Shown one piece after another: positions 25,946 to 37,142 of a stretch of 64,000 nt of DNA. Positions within the stretch are counted from its first letter, which is position 1; the number at the start of each line of letters is the position of its first letter. Location of the stretch: assembly GCF_000257395.1 (NCBI RefSeq), contig NZ_AJGC01000001.1, positions 1 to 64,000 on the forward strand. The letters run 5' to 3'. The DNA comes from Rickettsiella massiliensis 20B. GTDB lineage: Bacteria > Pseudomonadota > Gammaproteobacteria > Diplorickettsiales > Diplorickettsiaceae. Below the pieces are notes generated by a model. The model was not told the origin of the DNA. It did not search any database and was given only the letters and a program-made list of their open reading frames with translations. Position numbers and translations under genes: made by a program.

Positions 25946-28684
25946 ATGGATATCATTCGAATTCGTGGTGCTCGTACCCATAACCTTAAAAATCTGGATC
26001 TTGAGATTCCTCGGGGACAACTCGTGGTAATCACCGGCTTATCCGGCTCCGGGAAATCGTCTCTCGCGTTTGATACCTTATACGCAGAGGGGCAGCGCCG
26101 TTATGTTGAATCCTTGTCTTCTTATGCGCGTCAGTTTTTATCAATGATGGAAAAGCCCGATGTTGACCAAATTGAAGGCTTGTCCCCGGCGATTGCCATT
26201 GACCAAAAATCGACCTCACATAATCCACGCTCTACGGTCGGGACGATCACGGAAATTTATGATTACTTACGAGTACTGTTTGCACGACTCGGTGAACCCC
26301 ATTGTCCTGTACATCATACCAGTTTAGCTGCGCAAAGCGTCAGTCAAATGACCGATACGTTAATGGCTTTACCTCAGGAGACACGTCTTCTGTTACTTGC
26401 GCCGTTGATTCAGGAGCGTAAGGGGGAGCATAAACAACTTTTTGATCAATTACGCAGTCAGGGATATATTCGTGCACGCGTGGACGGTCAATTACAAGAA
26501 TTGGATCAACTTTTACCGCTGAATCCTAAACAAAAACATACCATCGAAGCGGTGGTGGATCGGATTAAAATTAAACCAGAAAATCGTTTACGGTTAAGTG
26601 AGTCATTAGCCACCGCAACGGCGTTGAGTGAAGGCTTGGTTAAAGTGATTCAGCAAACCGATTCACCGCAAAAAAAAGCGAAAGAATGGCTTTTTTCAGA
26701 ACGTTTTGCGTGCCCTCAGTGTGGCTATAGCCTCAGTGAGCTTAGCCCGCGCCTTTTTTCTTTTAATAACCCCTCCGGTGCTTGTACGCAATGCGATGGG
26801 CTAGGTTATGAACAAACCATGGATGTTGAGAAAATTCGGGCCCAGCCAATGAAAAGCTTAGCTGAGGGCGCACTCTCGGGTTGGCATGCACAAAATCCTT
26901 ATTATTTTGCCTTACTCACTGCTTTAGCAAAACACTATGGTTTCTCATTAGATAAACCCTTTCAGAAGCTACCGCAGGCGATACAAAAACGGATTTTATA
27001 TGGAACAGGAAAAGAAGAAATTGCTTTTCATTATGAATCCGAAAAGGGATTTTCTTTCCATAAAACTCGGCCGTTTGAAGGGGTGATTCCCATGATGCAA
27101 CGCCGTTATCAAGAAACCGACTCAGACAGCGTTCGGGAGGAGCTTTCTCGATATTTAACCTTAAAACCTTGCGCAGATTGTGCAGGCATGCGCCTGAAAG
27201 AGGCGGCGCGTCATGTCTGGATTAATGGTCAAAATATTGCCCAGTGGGCCGCTTTACCCATTACAAAACTCTATACCTTACTCAATCAGTGGGCATTAAC
27301 TGGGCAACACGCAGCAATAGCGAGTGGGTTAAAGAAAGAAATTGTTGAACGCTTGAGTTTTTTAATGGATGTGGGCTTAGACTACTTATCTTTGGATCGC
27401 AGTGCGAACACCTTATCAGGAGGCGAATCGCAACGTATTCGTCTTGCTAGCCAGATTGGTTCGGGGTTGGTCGGAGTGATGTATATTCTAGATGAACCTT
27501 CTATTGGCTTACATCAGCGAGATAATGACCGTTTACTCAGTACATTGATGCGCTTACGTGATTTAGGCAATACCGTGATTGTGGTCGAACACGATGAAGA
27601 TGCGATACTTCATGCCGATCATTTAAATTGATATGGGGCCCGGTGCGGGAATCCATGGTGGGCAAGTGATTGCCCAAGGCTCTCCTGCGGCGATTATGCG
27701 GCATGCTGACTCGTTAACCGGGCAATATTTATCCGGGCAACGTCGGATTGCGATCCCTAAAAAGCGCCTCCCTTTTAATCGACAAAAGGCATTACACCTG
27801 ATTGGTGCTTCGGGTAATAACCTCAAACAACTTGACGTTGAAATTCCTCTGGGGTTGATGACTTGTATTACCGGGGTCTCTGGATCAGGCAAATCGACGT
27901 TAATTAACGACACGCTCTATCCGATTGCGGCGCAAAAGCTCAATGCGGCGACCCTGATTCAGGCGGCACCTTACCAAAAAATAACTGGGCTCGAACAGTT
28001 AGACAAAGTAATTGATATTGATCAAAGCCCTATCGGACGAACACCTCGTTTAAAAGGAGGGCGTTGCGAAGCGTGTGAAGGAGATGGTGTCCTGAAAAGT
28101 TGAAATGCATTTTTTTAGCAGATGTCTACGTGCAGTGTGATCTTTGTAAAGGGCAACGTTATAATCGTGAAACGCTAGAAATTCAGTATAAAGGTAAAAC
28201 GATTCACCAAATTTTAGAAATGACCGTAGAAGAGGCACATTCTTTTTTTAGTGCTATTCCAGTATTAGCCCGTAAGTTAGCGACGCTTATCGATGTGGGA
28301 CTTTCATATATTCATTTAGGTCAAAGTGCAACCACGCTCTCTGGTGGCGAAGCACAACGTATTAAATTGGCCAAAGAATTAAGTAAGCGTGACACCGGGC
28401 GAACTTTGTATATTTTAGATGAGCCAACGACAGGACTCCATTTCTTTGACATCGAACAATTACTAAAAGTCTTGCATCGTTTACGTGATAAAGGCAATAC
28501 CATTGTTGTCATCGAACATAATCTGGATGTCATCAAAACAGCGGATTGGATTATTGATCTAGGACCCGAAGGGGGAAGTAAGGGAGGCGAAATCGTGTGT
28601 GTTGGCACACCTGAGCAAGTGGCGAAAAATACCGCTTCGTTTACTGGTCAATTCTTAAAGCGCATTTTGTTAGGTAAAAAATGA
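25946..28684 (+). CDS. uvrA: excinuclease ABC subunit UvrA, two frameshifts and an internal gap
   Basis: UvrA is the damage-sensing ATPase of nucleotide excision repair. The two ABC modules are visible: Walker [11 protein letters not shown] and [10 protein letters not shown], signatures [14 protein letters not shown] and [14 protein letters not shown], zinc fingers [11 protein letters not shown]...CTQCDG and CEACEGDG...CDLCKG. Frames change at ~27627 (AAATTG for AATTG) and ~28097 (AAAAG for AAAG). At ~28048 the text goes from SPIGRTPR directly to KGGRCEAC; about 36 residues (the conserved NPATYTG ... GRFSFN segment) are missing in frame. The rest matches E. coli UvrA closely. Confidence 0.94.
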
Positions 28685-28957: not shown

Positions 28958-29683
28958 TTAACCAAAGTTGTAAGAAACACCCGCTGCAACGAAGTCAACG
29001 TTGCCCACACGATTTTTACCAATCGTATGGATATGTGTCCAAGAGGTATCTATCGAAACATTTTGTGTGACGTCATAGCTAATACCAATAGCGACTTCAG
29101 GCGCCCATTGTGATCTTTTGATATTCGTCAGATCATTGACATTTAATTTTCCATTAATGTCAACAGGTATGGTTTTGTTTTTATTGAATTTACCGTTAAA
29201 TTCAATGTCGTTTTTTAGGTAAGCAACACCAAGTTTTCCATAAAGATTCAAATTATTCGCAATAGGGATAATACCTTTTGCTGCGACATCAATCGCATAT
29301 TGGTTTAATGTCAGATTAGCTTGAGCAATTTTCTTTCCAGCTTTGTCATTGAAAGAAAAGTTACCGCTTTTTCCTTGTTGAAGCTGAAGATAACCCATTT
29401 CAATCGCAAGGTTAGAGTTGAGCTGATAACCAATCGCTAAGCGGCCCGCTAAACCATTGTTTCCTGCGTTAGCTTTCCCACTAAATGTTGTGCTTTCGAC
29501 ACTAGGAAAAACATTAGAAATACCTGCTCCAATCTCGCTAGGATTAAATTTTGTTTTATTGTTCATCTGTGTTTGCGCATAGCCTAATTGACCGGTTACA
29601 TATATACCTGGCACGGCGGCATTGGCTACAGCAATACCCAGTGCAGCACCAAACAGCGCTGTTGTGAGTACTTTTTTAAGCAT
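28958..29683 (-). CDS. outer-membrane beta-barrel protein, paralogue 1
   Basis: The 241-residue product has a signal peptide (MLKKVLTTALFGAALGIAVANA), then alternating amphipathic strands of a small OmpA/OmpX-type barrel: PGIYVTGQLGYAQT, LAGRLAIGYQLNSNLAIEMGYL, LYGKLGVAYL, WAPEVAIGISYDV, and the C-terminal strand GVSYNFG ending in an aromatic-like insertion signal. The motif DTSWTHIHTIGKNR is shared with paralogue 2. It is intact. A strong promoter and palindrome precede it. These may be adhesion, porin-like or immune-interaction proteins; function is unknown. Confidence 0.85.
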   Translation of the reverse strand: MLKKVLTTALFGAALGIAVANAAVPGIYVTGQLGYAQTQMNNKTKFNPSEIGAGISNVFPSVESTTFSGKANAGNNGLAGRLAIGYQLNSNLAIEMGYLQLQQGKSGNFSFNDKAGKKIAQANLTLNQYAIDVAAKGIIPIANNLNLYGKLGVAYLKNDIEFNGKFNKNKTIPVDINGKLNVNDLTNIKRSQWAPEVAIGISYDVTQNVSIDTSWTHIHTIGKNRVGNVDFVAAGVSYNFG

Positions 29684-29711
29684 TTGTTATTCTCCAAAGT
29701 AATAAGGTTAT

Positions 29712-29723
29712 TTAACTAGTTAA
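29712..29723 (-). promoter_or_regulatory. leader palindrome of barrel gene 1
   Basis: TTAACTAGTTAA is a perfect 12-bp palindrome, 28 bases upstream of the start codon and just downstream of the predicted -10. The same 12 bases occur before paralogue 2. It may be an operator. Confidence 0.5.
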
Positions 29724-29733
29724 CCTGAGGGGT

Positions 29734-29762
29734 ATTTAAACTATATTAATTTATATTGTCAA
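29734..29762 (-). promoter_or_regulatory. sigma-70-type promoter of barrel gene 1
   Basis: On the minus strand, TTGACA (29762-29757), a 17-bp spacer and TTAAAT (29739-29734). The identical -35, spacing and -10 precede paralogues 2 and 3. Confidence 0.7.
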
Positions 29763-30643
29763 TAATAAAATAATTTATTTATTAATTATTTTATCTGTTA
29801 ATTATATTAAAGATATTCATTTAATAATATAATATTTAATAGATATAAAGTTTAATATGCAAATAATAAATTAATTAATATTTATTGATTTATTATCATC
29901 TATCAATAAATAATATAAATTAAATAATAAAAATACATTATGTCCTATTACATTTTTAGTAATCATTTTAAGAATAGAAACTAGACTACAACTTATAATT
30001 ATAAATTCTCATCTTAAATAAAAGATAAACCTATTTTTAGAAAATTTTCTTTCAATATTTTTATCTAAAATTATTATCAAAATGTAAATTAAAATCTAGC
30101 AAAAACTAGACCTTGTGTATGAAGTAATGACTCATTATTTATAACAAAGGTCTTTTAAATAAGTGAAGAAGATTCATTTTGACGAGAGTGACTTCTTACT
30201 TGGGTGATTCTGATCGTGTGTCAACTATCTGTAAACATATTCAGTGCTAGCGAAAAGATAAAAACGATGAAAATAAATAATTTTCTAGTGTTTTCAGATA
30301 ATAACAAAGAATCCTTTGTTAAATATAACCTTTATACTTATATATAAAAATTATTTTGTGAACTTTTTTAAATTTTATTAACCCTTACGGTGTCTGGTCA
30401 TAGGATAGAAAGAACCATTTTATATTTTATAAAAGCGTCTACTTTTATAACTACGTACACTTTAACACTTAGAGGATAAATGTAATAAAATAGTTATTTA
30501 GACGATCGAAAACACAATGTTTATTAATAGGAAAGGACATGAGCGAGTAAAAAATCAAAGAATCTGTTATGAGTATGTTTTGCTAAGAGGAAGCGTTATT
30601 TTACGCTTAGAGGATCAGTAATATAACAAGAGTTCTAAATAAG
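29763..30643. other. 880-bp AT-rich intergenic stretch, no gene seen
   Basis: No frame of useful length, RNA gene or repeat is evident. The stretch separates barrel genes 1 and 2 and could be the remains of another paralogue, but no barrel motif is readable in it. Confidence 0.5.
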
Positions 30644-30669
30644 AAAGCCCCTTGCAAGAAGGGGCTTTT
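30644..30669. terminator. terminator after barrel gene 2
   Basis: AAAGCCCCTT and AAGGGGCTTT form a perfect 10-bp stem with loop GCAAG. The stop of paralogue 2 is about 40 bases upstream on the minus strand. Confidence 0.75.
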
Positions 30670-30709
30670 GAGTAACAATTTTTATAACTTAATGGTTAGA
30701 AATGAATGA

Positions 30710-31410
30710 TTAACCAAAGTTATAAGAAAGGCCAACTGCAGCAAAGTTGATATTGCCTGCACGGTTTTTACCAATAGTATGGATATGCGTCCAAGAAGTA
30801 TCTATAGCAACGTTAGGCGTGATATCGTAACTCACCCCGACAGCGACTTCAGGCGCCCATTGGCGATTTTTAAAGCCAGCGGCATCATTAATGTCATAGC
30901 TAACTTTCTGATCTTTACCATTTTTACCGTCAATAGATAAATTGCTGGTCAGGTAAGCAACACCTAATTTGCCGTAGACATTAAAATTATTGCATATCGG
31001 TACAATACCTTTTGCCGCGAGGTCAAACGCATTCTGTGCGAATGTCATGGATGGATCTTTTAAATCAATGGCTGGATTACCCATTTTTGCACTCTCAAGG
31101 TAATTTTTTTTGAACCTAAGCGGAGATAACCCAATTCGACAGCAAAATTTTGATTAAACTGATAACCAATCGCTAAACGACCGGCTAAGCCATTATTTGC
31201 TAGATTTTTATCATTGCTATCTTTAAGTGTAAAAGAATCACCGGCAGGGAGGTTCTTTGAAATTGCGTCTAAGTCAGTTTTATGTTTCATATGCGTTTGT
31301 GCATAACCCAACTGACCCGTTACATAAACACCTGGCGCGGCGGCATTAGCTGCGGCAACACCCAGTGCAGAGGCACCAAACAGCGCTGTTATGAGTACTT
31401 TTTTAAGCAT
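30710..31410 (-). CDS. outer-membrane beta-barrel protein, paralogue 2, one frameshift
   Basis: It has the same plan as paralogue 1: signal peptide LLKKVLITALFGAS-type (starts MLKKVL), PGVYVTGQLGYAQTH, LAGRLAIGYQFNQNFAVELGYL, then after a frame change in a run of T near 31100 the rest: FDLAAKGIVPI, NVYGKLGVAYL, WAPEVAVGVSYDI, the DTSWTHIHTIGKNR motif and GLSYNFG. One base restores the frame. It is the closest relative of paralogue 1, indicating a recent duplication. Confidence 0.83.
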
Positions 31411-31431
31411 TTATTATTCTCCTACAAGAGG

Positions 31432-31443
31432 TTAACTAGTTAA
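31432..31443 (-). promoter_or_regulatory. leader palindrome of barrel gene 2
   Basis: Perfect palindrome TTAACTAGTTAA, 21 bases upstream of the start codon, identical to the one before paralogue 1 although the flanks differ. Confidence 0.5.
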
Positions 31444-31453
31444 ACAAGGCCCT

Positions 31454-31482
31454 ATTTAAGCGTTGGTAGTCTATCTTGTCAA
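31454..31482 (-). promoter_or_regulatory. sigma-70-type promoter of barrel gene 2
   Basis: TTGACA (31482-31477), 17-bp spacer, TTAAAT (31459-31454) on the minus strand; the spacer sequence differs from paralogue 1, so the boxes are conserved by selection rather than by general similarity. Confidence 0.7.
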
Positions 31483-31546
31483 GCAATGTTAACAAAAACT
31501 TATAAAGTGAAAACGATGTTTTTGTAGATTAATAGGGTTTAAAAAT

Positions 31547-31574
31547 AAAAACCCCTTGTTTACAAGGGGTTTTT
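31547..31574. terminator. bidirectional terminator after barrel gene 3
   Basis: AAAAACCCCTTGT and ACAAGGGGTTTTT form a perfect 13-bp stem with a 2-base loop, T-run on both strands. Confidence 0.85.
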
Positions 31575-31602
31575 ATCTCATGATCAGAGTAACTGATTAC
31601 AT

Positions 31603-32366
31603 TTAACCAAAGGTGTAATTAACACCGACAGCTAAGTAATTAATATTACTCGGGCGTTTGTTACCTACAGGATGAATATGCGTTAGTGAGGTATCTACTG
31701 CAATGCTGGGTGTTACATTGAAATCCATACCCACCGCAACTTCAGGTGCAAACTTGTGGCGTGCTATACCGTAATCATTATTTAACTCTCTAGTTCCATT
31801 ATTAATGGTTTCGTTATAACGACTGGTGATATAAGCGACACCTGCTTTTCCATAAAGATTCACTCGTTCTGTAATCGGATAGCTCGCTTTACCGGCAAGA
31901 TCAATTACGCTTTGTTGGTCAACTTTTTTGTAATCCTCGCTGGCTTCAGTCTTTTTTCTTAAGGCAAGATAACCGGCTTCTACAGCAAAGTTTTTATTGA
32001 TTTGATAACCAATATTTACTCGGCCAGCGAGACCGTCATTATTAACAAAAAATGATTGATTTGGAACAGAAGATTCACCATAACCGACTTGCGCACCGAC
32101 ATATAAACCTGCAGGTAAACCGTGATGCTCTGAGGGGTTAGAAATGGTTTGTGCGGGCACCGTTGCTGACATGTCTTCTACGTTTGACGGTGCTTGTTCC
32201 GTTTTATTAGCTGATTTCAGCTTTTTTTTGTATGAGCGTGATGATGCGTTTTAGCATGAAGTGGCTTAGTTGCTGGCGTAGCGGTTGAAGCGACCTCCGC
32301 GTTGGCATTTACCAGCGCAAGAATGGAAACACCCAGCACGCTTGTCATTATTACTTTTTTCATCAT
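31603..32366 (-). CDS. outer-membrane beta-barrel protein, paralogue 3, one frameshift
   Basis: The N-terminus (MMKKVIMTSVLGVSILALVNANA signal region, split here as a motif near 32366-32300) is followed by a Thr/His-rich linker with HAKTHHHAH, a frame change at ~32225 in a run of A, and then the barrel: PAGLYVGAQVGYGES, LAGRVNIGYQINKNFAVEAGYL, LYGKAGVAYI, FAPEVAVGMDF, DTSLTHIHPVG and GVNYTFG. The His-rich segment is unlike paralogues 1 and 2 and could bind metal or be surface-exposed. The shared promoter precedes it. Confidence 0.8.
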
Positions 32367-32409
32367 TGTTATTATCTTCTCCAGAGAGATTTTCTAATCA
32401 GAAGAGGGT

Positions 32410-32438
32410 ATTTAATCGTTTGTGAGGAAATTTGTCAA
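32410..32438 (-). promoter_or_regulatory. sigma-70-type promoter of barrel gene 3
   Basis: TTGACA (32438-32433), 17-bp spacer, TTAAAT (32415-32410) on the minus strand: same boxes and spacing as paralogues 1 and 2. The TTAACTAGTTAA palindrome is absent here. Confidence 0.68.
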
Positions 32439-32567
32439 TTTTTCTAGGATAAACAAGGTAAAACTGAAAGAAAAAAGCAGATTTTTGACTTTTCTAACCA
32501 TCTTTTATTTATAAAAAGATCATTTATTAGATAAAAATATTAATTTAAGAAATAAATTTATCAGTTC

Positions 32568-33239
32568 TTAACCTAAATAATAGTACAATCCTAAAGAATA
32601 GAAATCGATGCTCGGCCGGTAGGGTAACCCACGAATGGCTTGTAGGCGATGCCAAGAAAAATCTACGGCAATTTCAGGAAAAATAGAATAACGAATACCT
32701 ATTCCAAATATAGGTTCTAAGGTGGGTGGGTAACGTTTTCCCGCGAGGCTAAACTCGCTGGGTCCCGTAGTACCGGCCACATGGCCTCCGCCTTTTGTAT
32801 TGCCAGGATGAAAATAGGCTACCCCGAGTGTGGCATATAGATTGAGATGGGGTTGAATCGGAATTATTTTTTTAGCTACCAAATCCCAGGCAAAGCCTTC
32901 AACATCACCATTCAAAGAATAGTGATCTGAGGTGACATACTCATCAAGAACAGTATGTTGTAGCGCTTGCCAACCCATTTCAACGGCCAAATCTGATTTA
33001 AATAGATAACTGATGCTCGCACGTGTTGAAGCAACAAAGTGTTGGAAATACGCTTGTGATGGAAACGGCACCCGATTTTTATAAACTTCAACTAGATCGT
33101 CTACCTTCATATGTGTATTGGCGTAACCATTTTGTAAACCGGTATATCAACCCGGTCGTTCGGCATGAGAGGATATCGATAAATTGATGAGAAGAAGTAA
33201 AGTAGCGCTGAGAACAGTGATTTTTTTAAATGAAGTCAT
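32568..33239 (-). CDS. outer-membrane beta-barrel protein, paralogue 4, in-frame TGA
   Basis: ATG 33239 opens a signal peptide (TSFKKITVLSATLLLLINLS) in the same frame as the barrel, but a TGA at 33149-33147 interrupts it at the position after PG where the other copies have Ile, Val or Leu (PG-x-Y). Downstream: NGYANTH, ASISYLFKSDLAVEMGW, LYATLGVAYF, PIFGIGIRYSI, VDFSWHRLQ and LGLYYYLG. A single base change (for example TTA to TGA) explains it: nonsense mutation or base error. Copies 4 and 5 form a divergent subgroup. The TTGACA-17-TTAAAT promoter is not seen. Confidence 0.72.
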
Positions 33240-33388
33240 CCGATTCTTCTTATCGTGTATGAAAAAAATGAAGCCAAATTATTTCGCTGTGAGCAAATAT
33301 ATGATTAATTAATGAATTTATTTAATCAATTTTAAAGCATAAGTAAACTTCGTATCAACCTATTTTTTTAAATAAATAGTTACGGTGG

Positions 33389-33989
33389 TTAACCAAAATA
33401 ATAGGCGAAGCCAATCGAATAAAAGTCTGCGCTGGGTGTTTTATTATCGTTGCCGTGTAGATTTTGCAAGCGCATCCAAGACAAATCAATGGGTAGGCTG
33501 GGTGAGATATCATAACTTAAACCCAAGCCAAACACAGGATCCCAGCTGTCTGCATAATCCAAATAGTGGCGTTCATTAACAAACGCTTCGCCACTGGCTT
33601 TTAAACAAGCTAAACCGAGGCGACCATAAAAAGTGAGATTGGTTGACAGGGCTAACATCGGTTTAACCGCGATATCAATCGCTTTTTCCCCTAATGAAAC
33701 TTCTTTATTCACATGGCCGCCCACCTGATAAAACCGTGCATTTGAAAATTGCAGATAGCCTAATTCAATGGCCATATTTTTGATTAAACTGATAACCCAC
33801 TGCAAACCGACCACTTAAATCAGCGTGTTCTACCGATAAGGCCGCTGCATCTTGTTCATTGACATGGGTATTCCCTGAGCCGATCTGTCCTAGCAAATAG
33901 ATGCCCGGAATACTCGCTTGCAGGGGAAGTGGAAGGCTAAAAAGTGTAGAACAACCAAAGAGTATGGTACGGATTTTTCTTGGTAACAT
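33389..33989 (-). CDS. outer-membrane beta-barrel protein, paralogue 5, one frameshift
   Basis: ATG 33989 follows GGAGG at a good distance. Signal peptide LPRKIRTILFGCSTLFSLPL, then PGIYLLGQIGSGNTH, DLSGRFAVGYQFNQK, a frame change near 33780 in a T run, MAIELGYLQFSN, LTFYGRLGLACL, PVFGLGLSYDI, IDLSWMRLQNLHG and IGFAYYFG. It is most like paralogue 4 (SWxRLQ). It is divergent from ubiA. Confidence 0.78.
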
Positions 33990-34109
33990 GGTCAGTGAGC
34001 CTCCTGGCAAAACGAGCGTTTACGGGAACCTTTTTTATCGATATCTAAAAACCTATTCCATGAAGAGAGAGGATTTGCATTTAACAATGAGTATTATAGG
34101 ATACCTTTT

Positions 34110-34930
34110 ATGAACCAGCTATTTTCTCTCAAACCGTATGCACAGCTTTTGCGACTCCATCAACCGATTGGCACGCTCTTATTGCTTTGGCCAACGCTTT
34201 GGGCGCTTTGGATTGCAGGCAAGGGGCATCCCGGATGGGAAAATCTATTTTTTTTAGTAGCGGTGTTTTTTTGATGCGCTCGTTAGGGTGTGTTGCAAAT
34301 GATATTGCGGATCGTAAATGGGATGGTCAAGTCAAACGTACCCAACAGCGCCCTTTAGCCACACAAGCAATTTCTTTAAACGCTGCGCTTGTTCTGCAGT
34401 TGAATCGTTTTACTTTTCAATTGGCATGGGTTGGTTTGGGATTAACCTTGATCTATCCTTACGCAAAACGTTTTACTTATTGGCCGCAAGTGATTCTCGG
34501 ATTGACGTTTTCTTGGGGAATTCCGATGGCGTTTGCTGCACAAATCAATCAGGTCCCGCTTTTTGCATGGTTGCTTTATGTGAGTGCTTCGTCATGGCCG
34601 CTGGCTTATGATACGATTTATGCCATGGTCGATCGAGAAGACGACCAAAAAGTAGGGATTAAATCCACCGCAATTCGTCTTTATCAACGGGAAACCCAGT
34701 TTATTGCCGCTGTCCAAATGACATTTATTCTCAGTTTGTTTGGCTTAGGGCGATGGTTAGGTTTCTCCAGTGCGTATTACGTCGGTTTATTGGGTGCGAC
34801 GGGATTATTCGTGTATCAACAGTATTTAATTCAAGAACGTATCCCGGAGCACTGTTTTAAAGCCTTTCTCAATAACGCGTGGGTAGGGGCGTTGATTTTT
34901 CTAGGGATTTATTTTGGGATGCCTTCCTAA
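34110..34930 (+). CDS. ubiA: 4-hydroxybenzoate octaprenyltransferase UbiA, frameshifted, one segment short
   Basis: UbiA prenylates 4-hydroxybenzoate in the inner membrane for ubiquinone. The start [18 protein letters not shown] is family-typical. After a frame change in the T runs at ~34240-34270 the two Asp-rich motifs follow: NDIADRKWD (first prenyl-diphosphate Mg site) and [13 protein letters not shown] (second). Between QRPLATQAI and LIYPYAKR about 14 residues, most of one membrane helix, are missing compared with E. coli. ATG 34110 is the only family-like start. ubiC is not beside it. Confidence 0.9.
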
Positions 34931-36081: not shown

Positions 36082-37142
36082 ATGTCTTGTTATACCTTAG
36101 CGATTGATGCAATGGGGGGCGATTATGGCCCTTCTGTCACATTACCCGCCGCCTTGATGGCAATCAAAGCCGACCCGGCGCTGACAATTACCTTAGTCGG
36201 CAATGAGGCGGCTTTACAACAAGCGTTCACTCAGGCAACCCAGCAATCGGTTTGGCCAGAACGGCTAAAAATCCAAATGGCTTCCCAAGTGGTGGCCATG
36301 GATGAACCCCCAGCACAAGCCCTGCGTACGAAGAAAGACTCGTCTATGCGGGTCGCGATTAATCTTGTTAAATCTGGGCAAGCGCGGGCTTGTGTGAGTG
36401 CTGGAAATACTGGCGCATTGATGGCGACGGCCCGATTCGTGTTGGGTACCTTACCTGGAATTGATCGACCCGCTATTTCTGCAATGTTGCCTACGTTGCA
36501 AGAACAATCCAAAGTACGCATTCTCGATCTGGGTGCAAATGTTGATTCGCCACCTGAATCACTTTTGCAGTTTGCGGTGATGGGATCCGTTTTAAGCGAG
36601 TTTGTCGATAACATTCCTCATCCCCGTGTCGGCTTACTGAACATTGGGTCGGCTTACTGAACATTGGTTCTGAAGAAATTAAGGGAAATGAACAGGTTAA
36701 AAAAGCCGCTGAAATGCTTAAAAATAGCTCTATTCATTATATTGGGTATGTTGAAGGGGATGCGATCTACCAAGGCGTTGCTGATGTGATTGTTTGCGAT
36801 GGTTTTGTCGGCAATGTGGCATTGAAGGTGACTGAAGGGGTAGCCCAGCTGATTGGGCATTATATCAAGCGTTCTTTTAGCCGTAATTGGTTTTCTAAGC
36901 TATCTGGGCTCTTGGCGTTACGTGTATTGCAGCATTTGCGAAAACAGGTGGATCCCGCACACTACAATGGTGCGAGTTTAATCGGTTTAAAAGGTACCGT
37001 AGTGAAAAGTCATGGTAGCGCAAATATTGTTGCGTTTAATAATGCAATTAATGAAGCCGTTTCTGAAGTTAAAAAAAATATTCCCGAACAAATTCAAGAC
37101 CAAGTTTCTCGATTACTACGCGAATCGCGTGATACATTATGA
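36082..37142 (+). CDS. plsX: phosphate acyltransferase PlsX, broken by a 20-bp duplication
   Basis: PlsX makes acyl-phosphate from acyl-ACP for phospholipid synthesis. It starts [19 protein letters not shown] and has [26 protein letters not shown] and [10 protein letters not shown]. At 36631-36670 a 20-bp unit is repeated and throws the frame; removing one copy gives [19 protein letters not shown], exactly the family text. The C-terminal part ([16 protein letters not shown]) is normal. The TGA overlaps the fabH ATG. Confidence 0.93.
36631..36670 (+). repeat. 20-bp tandem duplication in plsX
   Basis: The unit GGCTTACTGAACATTGGGTC at 36631-36650 is followed by the same 20 bases with one difference (36651-36670). 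It shifts the frame of an essential-type gene. Confidence 0.9.

Follow-up and report, generated by a model that had tools for sequence, protein, structure and literature searches.

The window analysed here is a 64,000-base stretch of Rickettsiella massiliensis 20B, an intracellular bacterium associated with ticks (bases 1-64000 of contig C1, in a genome of 1,727,973 bases on six contigs), and its subject is a tandem array of five homologous coding regions on the minus strand at 28958-33989, flanked by uvrA and ubiA. The original prediction had read this array as five small outer-membrane barrel genes undergoing surface-protein diversification. The homology of the five minus-strand copies is borne out by a search with copy 1 against the whole 1.73-Mb genome, which returned six matches, all within the array (E 8e-156 to 5e-11), and recovered every other copy with similarity far above chance. 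What had been called five genes are five coding regions, of which only copy 1 (28958-29683, minus strand), an open reading frame of 241 residues, is an intact gene in the deposited sequence; copy 2 (30710-31410), copy 3 (31603-32366), copy 4 (32568-33239) and copy 5 (33389-33989), all on the same strand, have broken frames. All five copies do have a signal peptide; DTSxTHIHxxG is shared by copies 1-3, SWxRLQ by copies 4-5, and all five finish with an aromatic residue or leucine followed by glycine. Of three further motifs thought to be common to the whole array, copy 4 lacks two, reading STRASISYLF where the (L/A)GR...GYQ strand was expected and YATLG for the YGK/RLG strand, and it has a TGA stop codon (33149-33147) exactly at the variable position of the third, PG-x-Y.

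All five copies exceed the cut-off of 21 bits for the Pfam family OmpA_membrane, PF01389, with 64.7, 47.2, 78.7, 33.8 and 38.1 bits for copies 1 to 5 (E 1.2e-17 for copy 1; the score of copy 2 is that of its C-terminal part), and PF13505 is above its cut-off too. Solved OmpA barrels are matched by the family profile (E 2.4e-13), the alignment spanning positions 15-208 of 208 and running from strand 1 through the end of OmpA's barrel, the point at which the array proteins stop; against the full-length OmpA equivalog NF008071 the best two copies score 36.4-52.7 bits, the cut-off being 277. An AlphaFold2 model of copy 1, built on a small alignment of the window copies and the five copies of L003, has eight strands, three long loops and one short one, with a predicted local distance difference test (pLDDT) score of 75, a predicted template modelling score of 0.72 and strands mostly above pLDDT 90. 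A Foldseek search with this model gave OmpA as the best solved neighbour (E 6.6e-12), followed by Ail, OmpW, OmpX and NspA. On these profile matches and this predicted fold, the array proteins are OmpA-type eight-stranded outer-membrane barrels, their location in the outer membrane being that expected of the family. They share the eight-strand topology and the barrel end SY-x-FG with the transmembrane domain of E. coli OmpA (PDB 1bxw/1qjp), and differ from OmpA in lacking its C-terminal OmpA/peptidoglycan domain, in standing in tandem rather than as a single gene, and in their loops. Neisseria Opa and NspA and Yersinia Ail and OmpX, also eight-stranded barrels with variable loops, give weak profile and fold matches to the array, which differs from them in having OmpA as its best match, in being free of phase-variable repeats and in its gene organisation.

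The array also occurs outside this genome. Relatives of copy 1 were found in 15 of the 16 genomes surveyed from the family, and thereby from the entire order; the exception is a genome that is 64% complete. Copies 5, 4 and 3 each fall, in the tree, into a one-to-one orthologue clade (O5, O4 and O3, with O5 the most conserved) that is represented in all well-assembled genomes across the family, and the uvrA side of the array is occupied by a variable block, made up of copies 1 and 2 here and of 2-6 genes across species. The order ubiA-O5-O4-O3-block-uvrA holds in every genome whose assembly spans the locus. Differences in array size among relatives, which it had been proposed to look for, do exist: the total is five genes in the present genome, G001, G004, G014 and G015, six in G002, G003 and G013, seven in G006, G008 and G009, and nine in G010. 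The locus is fragmented in G005 and G007. Copies 1 and 2 group as sisters within the block (98/99), and G013, a member of another genus, contributes three block genes that form a cluster of their own. A single block-like gene adjoins uvrA in G011, which belongs to another genus, and a genome of another family, G106, carries a pair of such barrel genes between uvrA and ubiA, and hence the location predates the family. The array is best explained as a tandem family passed on by vertical inheritance. Gene conversion leading to concerted evolution was rejected as the main force, since the nearest neighbours of individual segments lie mostly in other genomes.

The two parts of the array also evolve at different rates. 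For close pairs, the ratio of nonsynonymous to synonymous substitution rates (dN/dS) is 0.06-0.11 in O5, 0.12-0.22 in O4, 0.13-0.28 in O3 and about 0.19-0.42 in the block, the reference genes uvrA, fabH and coaD standing at 0.03-0.09; pooled loops give 0.31 versus 0.13 for strands. Loops L1, L2 and L3 of the block proteins are only 13, 12 and 17% identical and range from 8 to 41 residues in length, whereas the strands are 63% and loop L4 is 64% identical; the C-terminal strands of the block often reach 90% identity or higher between species and between genera, and the loops of O5 are 73-86% identical. Because the block loops lie so far below the strands, variation is concentrated in three exposed loops, under net purifying selection. 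Judged by the pooled-loop value of 0.31, without a site-model test, the exposed loops show no positive selection. The loop variation is relaxed or tolerated under purifying selection and is not proof of adaptive diversification. The diversification originally predicted thus holds for the block of copies 1 and 2, where gene number and loops L1-L3 vary, and fails for copies 3-5; conserved one-to-one orthologues without lineage-specific expansion, named beforehand as the pattern that would argue against it, are what copies 3-5 present and copies 1 and 2 do not.

These rates bear on a rival view, namely that the array is a conserved housekeeping envelope family with no part in host contact, and that the block comes down to dosage and drift in a porin or an OmpA-like anchor. 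Purifying selection in all pairs, pooled loops included, would fit this well, as would the three one-to-one orthologues found in all relatives and the strong conservation of L4 and the C-terminal strands across genera. However, it sits poorly with block loops that vary in length and sequence far more than the strands, and with copy numbers as unequal as those of the close relatives G006 and G010. We regard this explanation as possible, if on balance doubtful.

The block genes further differ from O4 and O5 in how they appear to be transcribed. The strong terminators predicted for copies 1-3 are present on the minus strand at 28917-28888 (13-bp stem), 30668-30644 (10-bp stem) and 31575-31546 (13-bp stem), and none follows copies 4 and 5. 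The same division shows in the wider count: 40 of the 43 block genes have a terminator 3' of them, as do 10 of 12 O3 genes, versus 0 of 13 O4 and 0 of 14 O5 genes (4 of 410 in shuffled sequence). As terminators are missing there, copies 5 and 4 are probably co-transcribed, reading into the region of copy 3. Block and O3 genes are preceded by TTGACA and a TTAAAT-like -10 element; the minus-strand promoters predicted by reading the DNA lie at 29734-29762 for copy 1 (TTGACA 29762-29757, TTAAAT 29739-29734) and at 31454-31482 for copy 2 (TTGACA 31482-31477, TTAAAT 31459-31454), with the block genes of relatives alike. Copy 3 has a predicted promoter of the same kind at 32410-32438, again on the minus strand and matched in its orthologues, with no palindrome.

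A palindrome is the distinguishing mark of the block. In the block, including copies 1 and 2, GTTTAACTAGTTAAAC stands just 3' of the -10 element and 16-26 bases ahead of the start codon; 41 of the 43 block genes carry it, and its conservation exceeds that of the promoter. Copy 1 has TTAACTAGTTAA at its predicted transcript start (29712-29723), within a 16-bp site of the GTTTAACTAGTTAAAC type (with variants) at 29708-29723, and copy 2 has it at the corresponding place (31432-31443), within a site of this type at 31428-31443. Across eight genomes, the 13-base core TTTAACTAGTTAA has a single site outside the array, palindromic on both strands (G006:1357903). Such an element could act in the RNA or in the DNA. 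A 5' mRNA stem-loop that stabilises its transcript is known for E. coli ompA, and the position of the palindrome at the predicted transcript start would suit a similar role, as would the finding that single transitions within it are mostly compatible with G-U pairing and that two pairs are compensated. Yet the RNA hairpin is worth only -0.7 kcal/mol and does not appear when the 5' regions of copies 1 and 2 are folded, and covariation within the palindrome was no better than in shuffled sequences. We therefore consider a stabilising stem-loop rather unlikely, and because the hairpin is weak, unformed and without a covariation signal, the palindrome is favoured as a candidate protein-binding site, possibly an operator. 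An operator of the MarR/SlyA type was considered and set aside, PF01047 being absent from five of the seven palindrome-bearing genomes, this one included.

The broken frames of the array call for separate treatment. Copies 2, 3 and 5 are frameshifted as deposited, copies 2 and 3 each within a run of eight A (near 31104-31111 and 32222-32229, respectively) and copy 5 near 33777, copy 4 carries the in-frame TGA noted above, and the frames reopen intact on either side of each break. The damage extends beyond the barrel genes: the neighbouring uvrA (25946-28684), ubiA (about 34089-34930) and plsX (36082-37142) are frame-split like them, uvrA over three frames, and elsewhere in the genome rpoB (G000:C2:285959-290015) is split into two pieces in different frames, with starts 838 bases apart. 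The rpoB frame is uninterrupted from end to end in G008 and G014, and its only cuts in G013 are those at contig ends. In dnaN of the present genome, the first 38 positions of the profile are missing in frame. Since the essential rpoB and the neighbours uvrA, ubiA and plsX are broken in the same way as the barrel genes, the broken frames of copies 2-5 are most probably errors of sequencing or assembly. The array genes are open in related genomes and intact in those relatives with complete assemblies.

Two biological explanations of the same breaks have to be weighed. The array could be decaying, with copy 1 alone functional and copies 2-5 genuine pseudogenes in a symbiont restricted to its host, and four broken frames out of five invite that conclusion. 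So does copy 4, with an end branch of 3.2 in the tree and only 35-40% identity to its orthologues, which share 56-86% with one another, and so does the adjacent uvrA, which is short of about 37 highly conserved residues found in the UvrA of L003, reflecting either an assembly collapse or a real loss of excision repair. Against decay stand the splitting of rpoB, the intact frames around each break, two of which lie within A8 runs, the intact copies in relatives, and the behaviour of copy 4 itself, whose codon-position differences (0.48/0.34/0.69) match the pattern of a coding gene, and which has one stop codon where neutral drift to the same identity would have produced 8.2 on average (P about 0.003 for at most one). 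Copy 4 remains a partial exception to the sequencing-error account, being unusually diverged, and decay of the array as a whole appears improbable. Alternatively, the A8 runs in which copies 2 and 3 break might be contingency tracts, switching copies on and off by phase variation. But A8 runs are commonplace in a 60% AT genome, the housekeeping genes are frame-split as well, and the array frames are open in relatives; Opa-like repeat tracts that are conserved in the relatives and change frame there were not found. Switching of this kind is very improbable, and as the main cause of the broken frames both pseudogenisation and phase variation were rejected on the rpoB control. On this reading, the four broken genes of this assembly should not be taken for pseudogenes.

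Taken as a whole, we read the locus as a tandem OmpA-type barrel family with a conserved part and a variable block, its broken frames mostly sequencing errors, and we put the probability of this reading at about 0.72. The conserved part (copies 5, 4 and 3) would encode structural surface proteins kept in every relative. The genes of the variable part, two here and up to six elsewhere, would each be transcribed singly, as a unit running from a sigma-70-type promoter of its own to a terminator of its own, with the shared palindrome at the transcript start, and the block may be under one local control element. We posit that such units are duplicated and lost and diverge mainly in loops L1-L3, which would change what the cell shows to an arthropod or vertebrate host cell. 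Any relevance to the host or its immune system is suggested by the family and, within the analysis, by predicted surface exposure. Three points weigh against this reading: diversification may be passive, given that dN/dS is below 1 everywhere; the acceleration and stop codon of copy 4 could mark real decay; and homology does not settle whether the barrels would serve as anchor, pore or adhesin.

Tandem families of small outer-membrane proteins in intracellular bacteria are already known. The P28/OMP-1 proteins of Ehrlichia, which belong to a different protein family, Surface_Ag_2, resemble the array in being encoded by tandem paralogous genes in a host-associated intracellular bacterium. These paralogues are expressed differently in tick and mammalian cells, and the regulator Tr1 binds their promoters (PMC7971322). 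The Tr1 motif, A(C/T)TATA, differs from the array palindrome; by analogy, then, P28 illustrates that host-dependent use of paralogues is possible, in a system whose family and motif are not those of the array. It is conceivable, though we would call it speculative and unlikely, that the block is a single-locus regulon in which a dimeric regulator acting at the palindromes picks the barrel for tick, insect or mammalian cells, as an independent gammaproteobacterial counterpart of the Ehrlichia P28 switch. No description of the array or its palindrome was found in the literature searched. If our reading of the locus is correct, it would provide candidate surface antigens for Rickettsiella and Diplorickettsia, whose surface proteins are hardly described in that literature, with the three constant barrels as markers and the variable set as a place to examine host adaptation; the array-specific palindrome makes regulation directly testable.

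Some minor features of the locus deserve mention. The spacer between copies 1 and 2 (29684-30709) is AT-rich (77%) and 1 kb long, compared with about 200-300 bases for most block spacers of relatives; a profile search in all six frames found no match to a sixth barrel gene in it and no coding remnant. The arrays of Rickettsiella relatives (e.g. L003, L045, L048-L050 and L053) share the ubiA-uvrA locus, the gene order, the terminators and, in nearly all block genes, the palindrome, and differ in their totals (5-9 genes) and in the intact frames of complete assemblies. A long Lys/Asn/His-rich linker lies 3' of the signal peptide in copy 3 (32366-32150) and in the orthologues of L052, L053 and L054, and is absent from the Rickettsiella (g2) orthologues. 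In L045 (5802-13449) and L050 (8368-15569), a gene of roughly 2000 residues and a partner of 380-400 residues are inserted between O3 and the variable block; the large gene of L045 has an NB-ARC/STAND NTPase domain, and the partners are without a Pfam match. L048 has a 353-residue gene at the same position, and L049 (11378-14015), alone among these relatives, carries two extra genes of 320 and 472 residues between ubiA and coaD.

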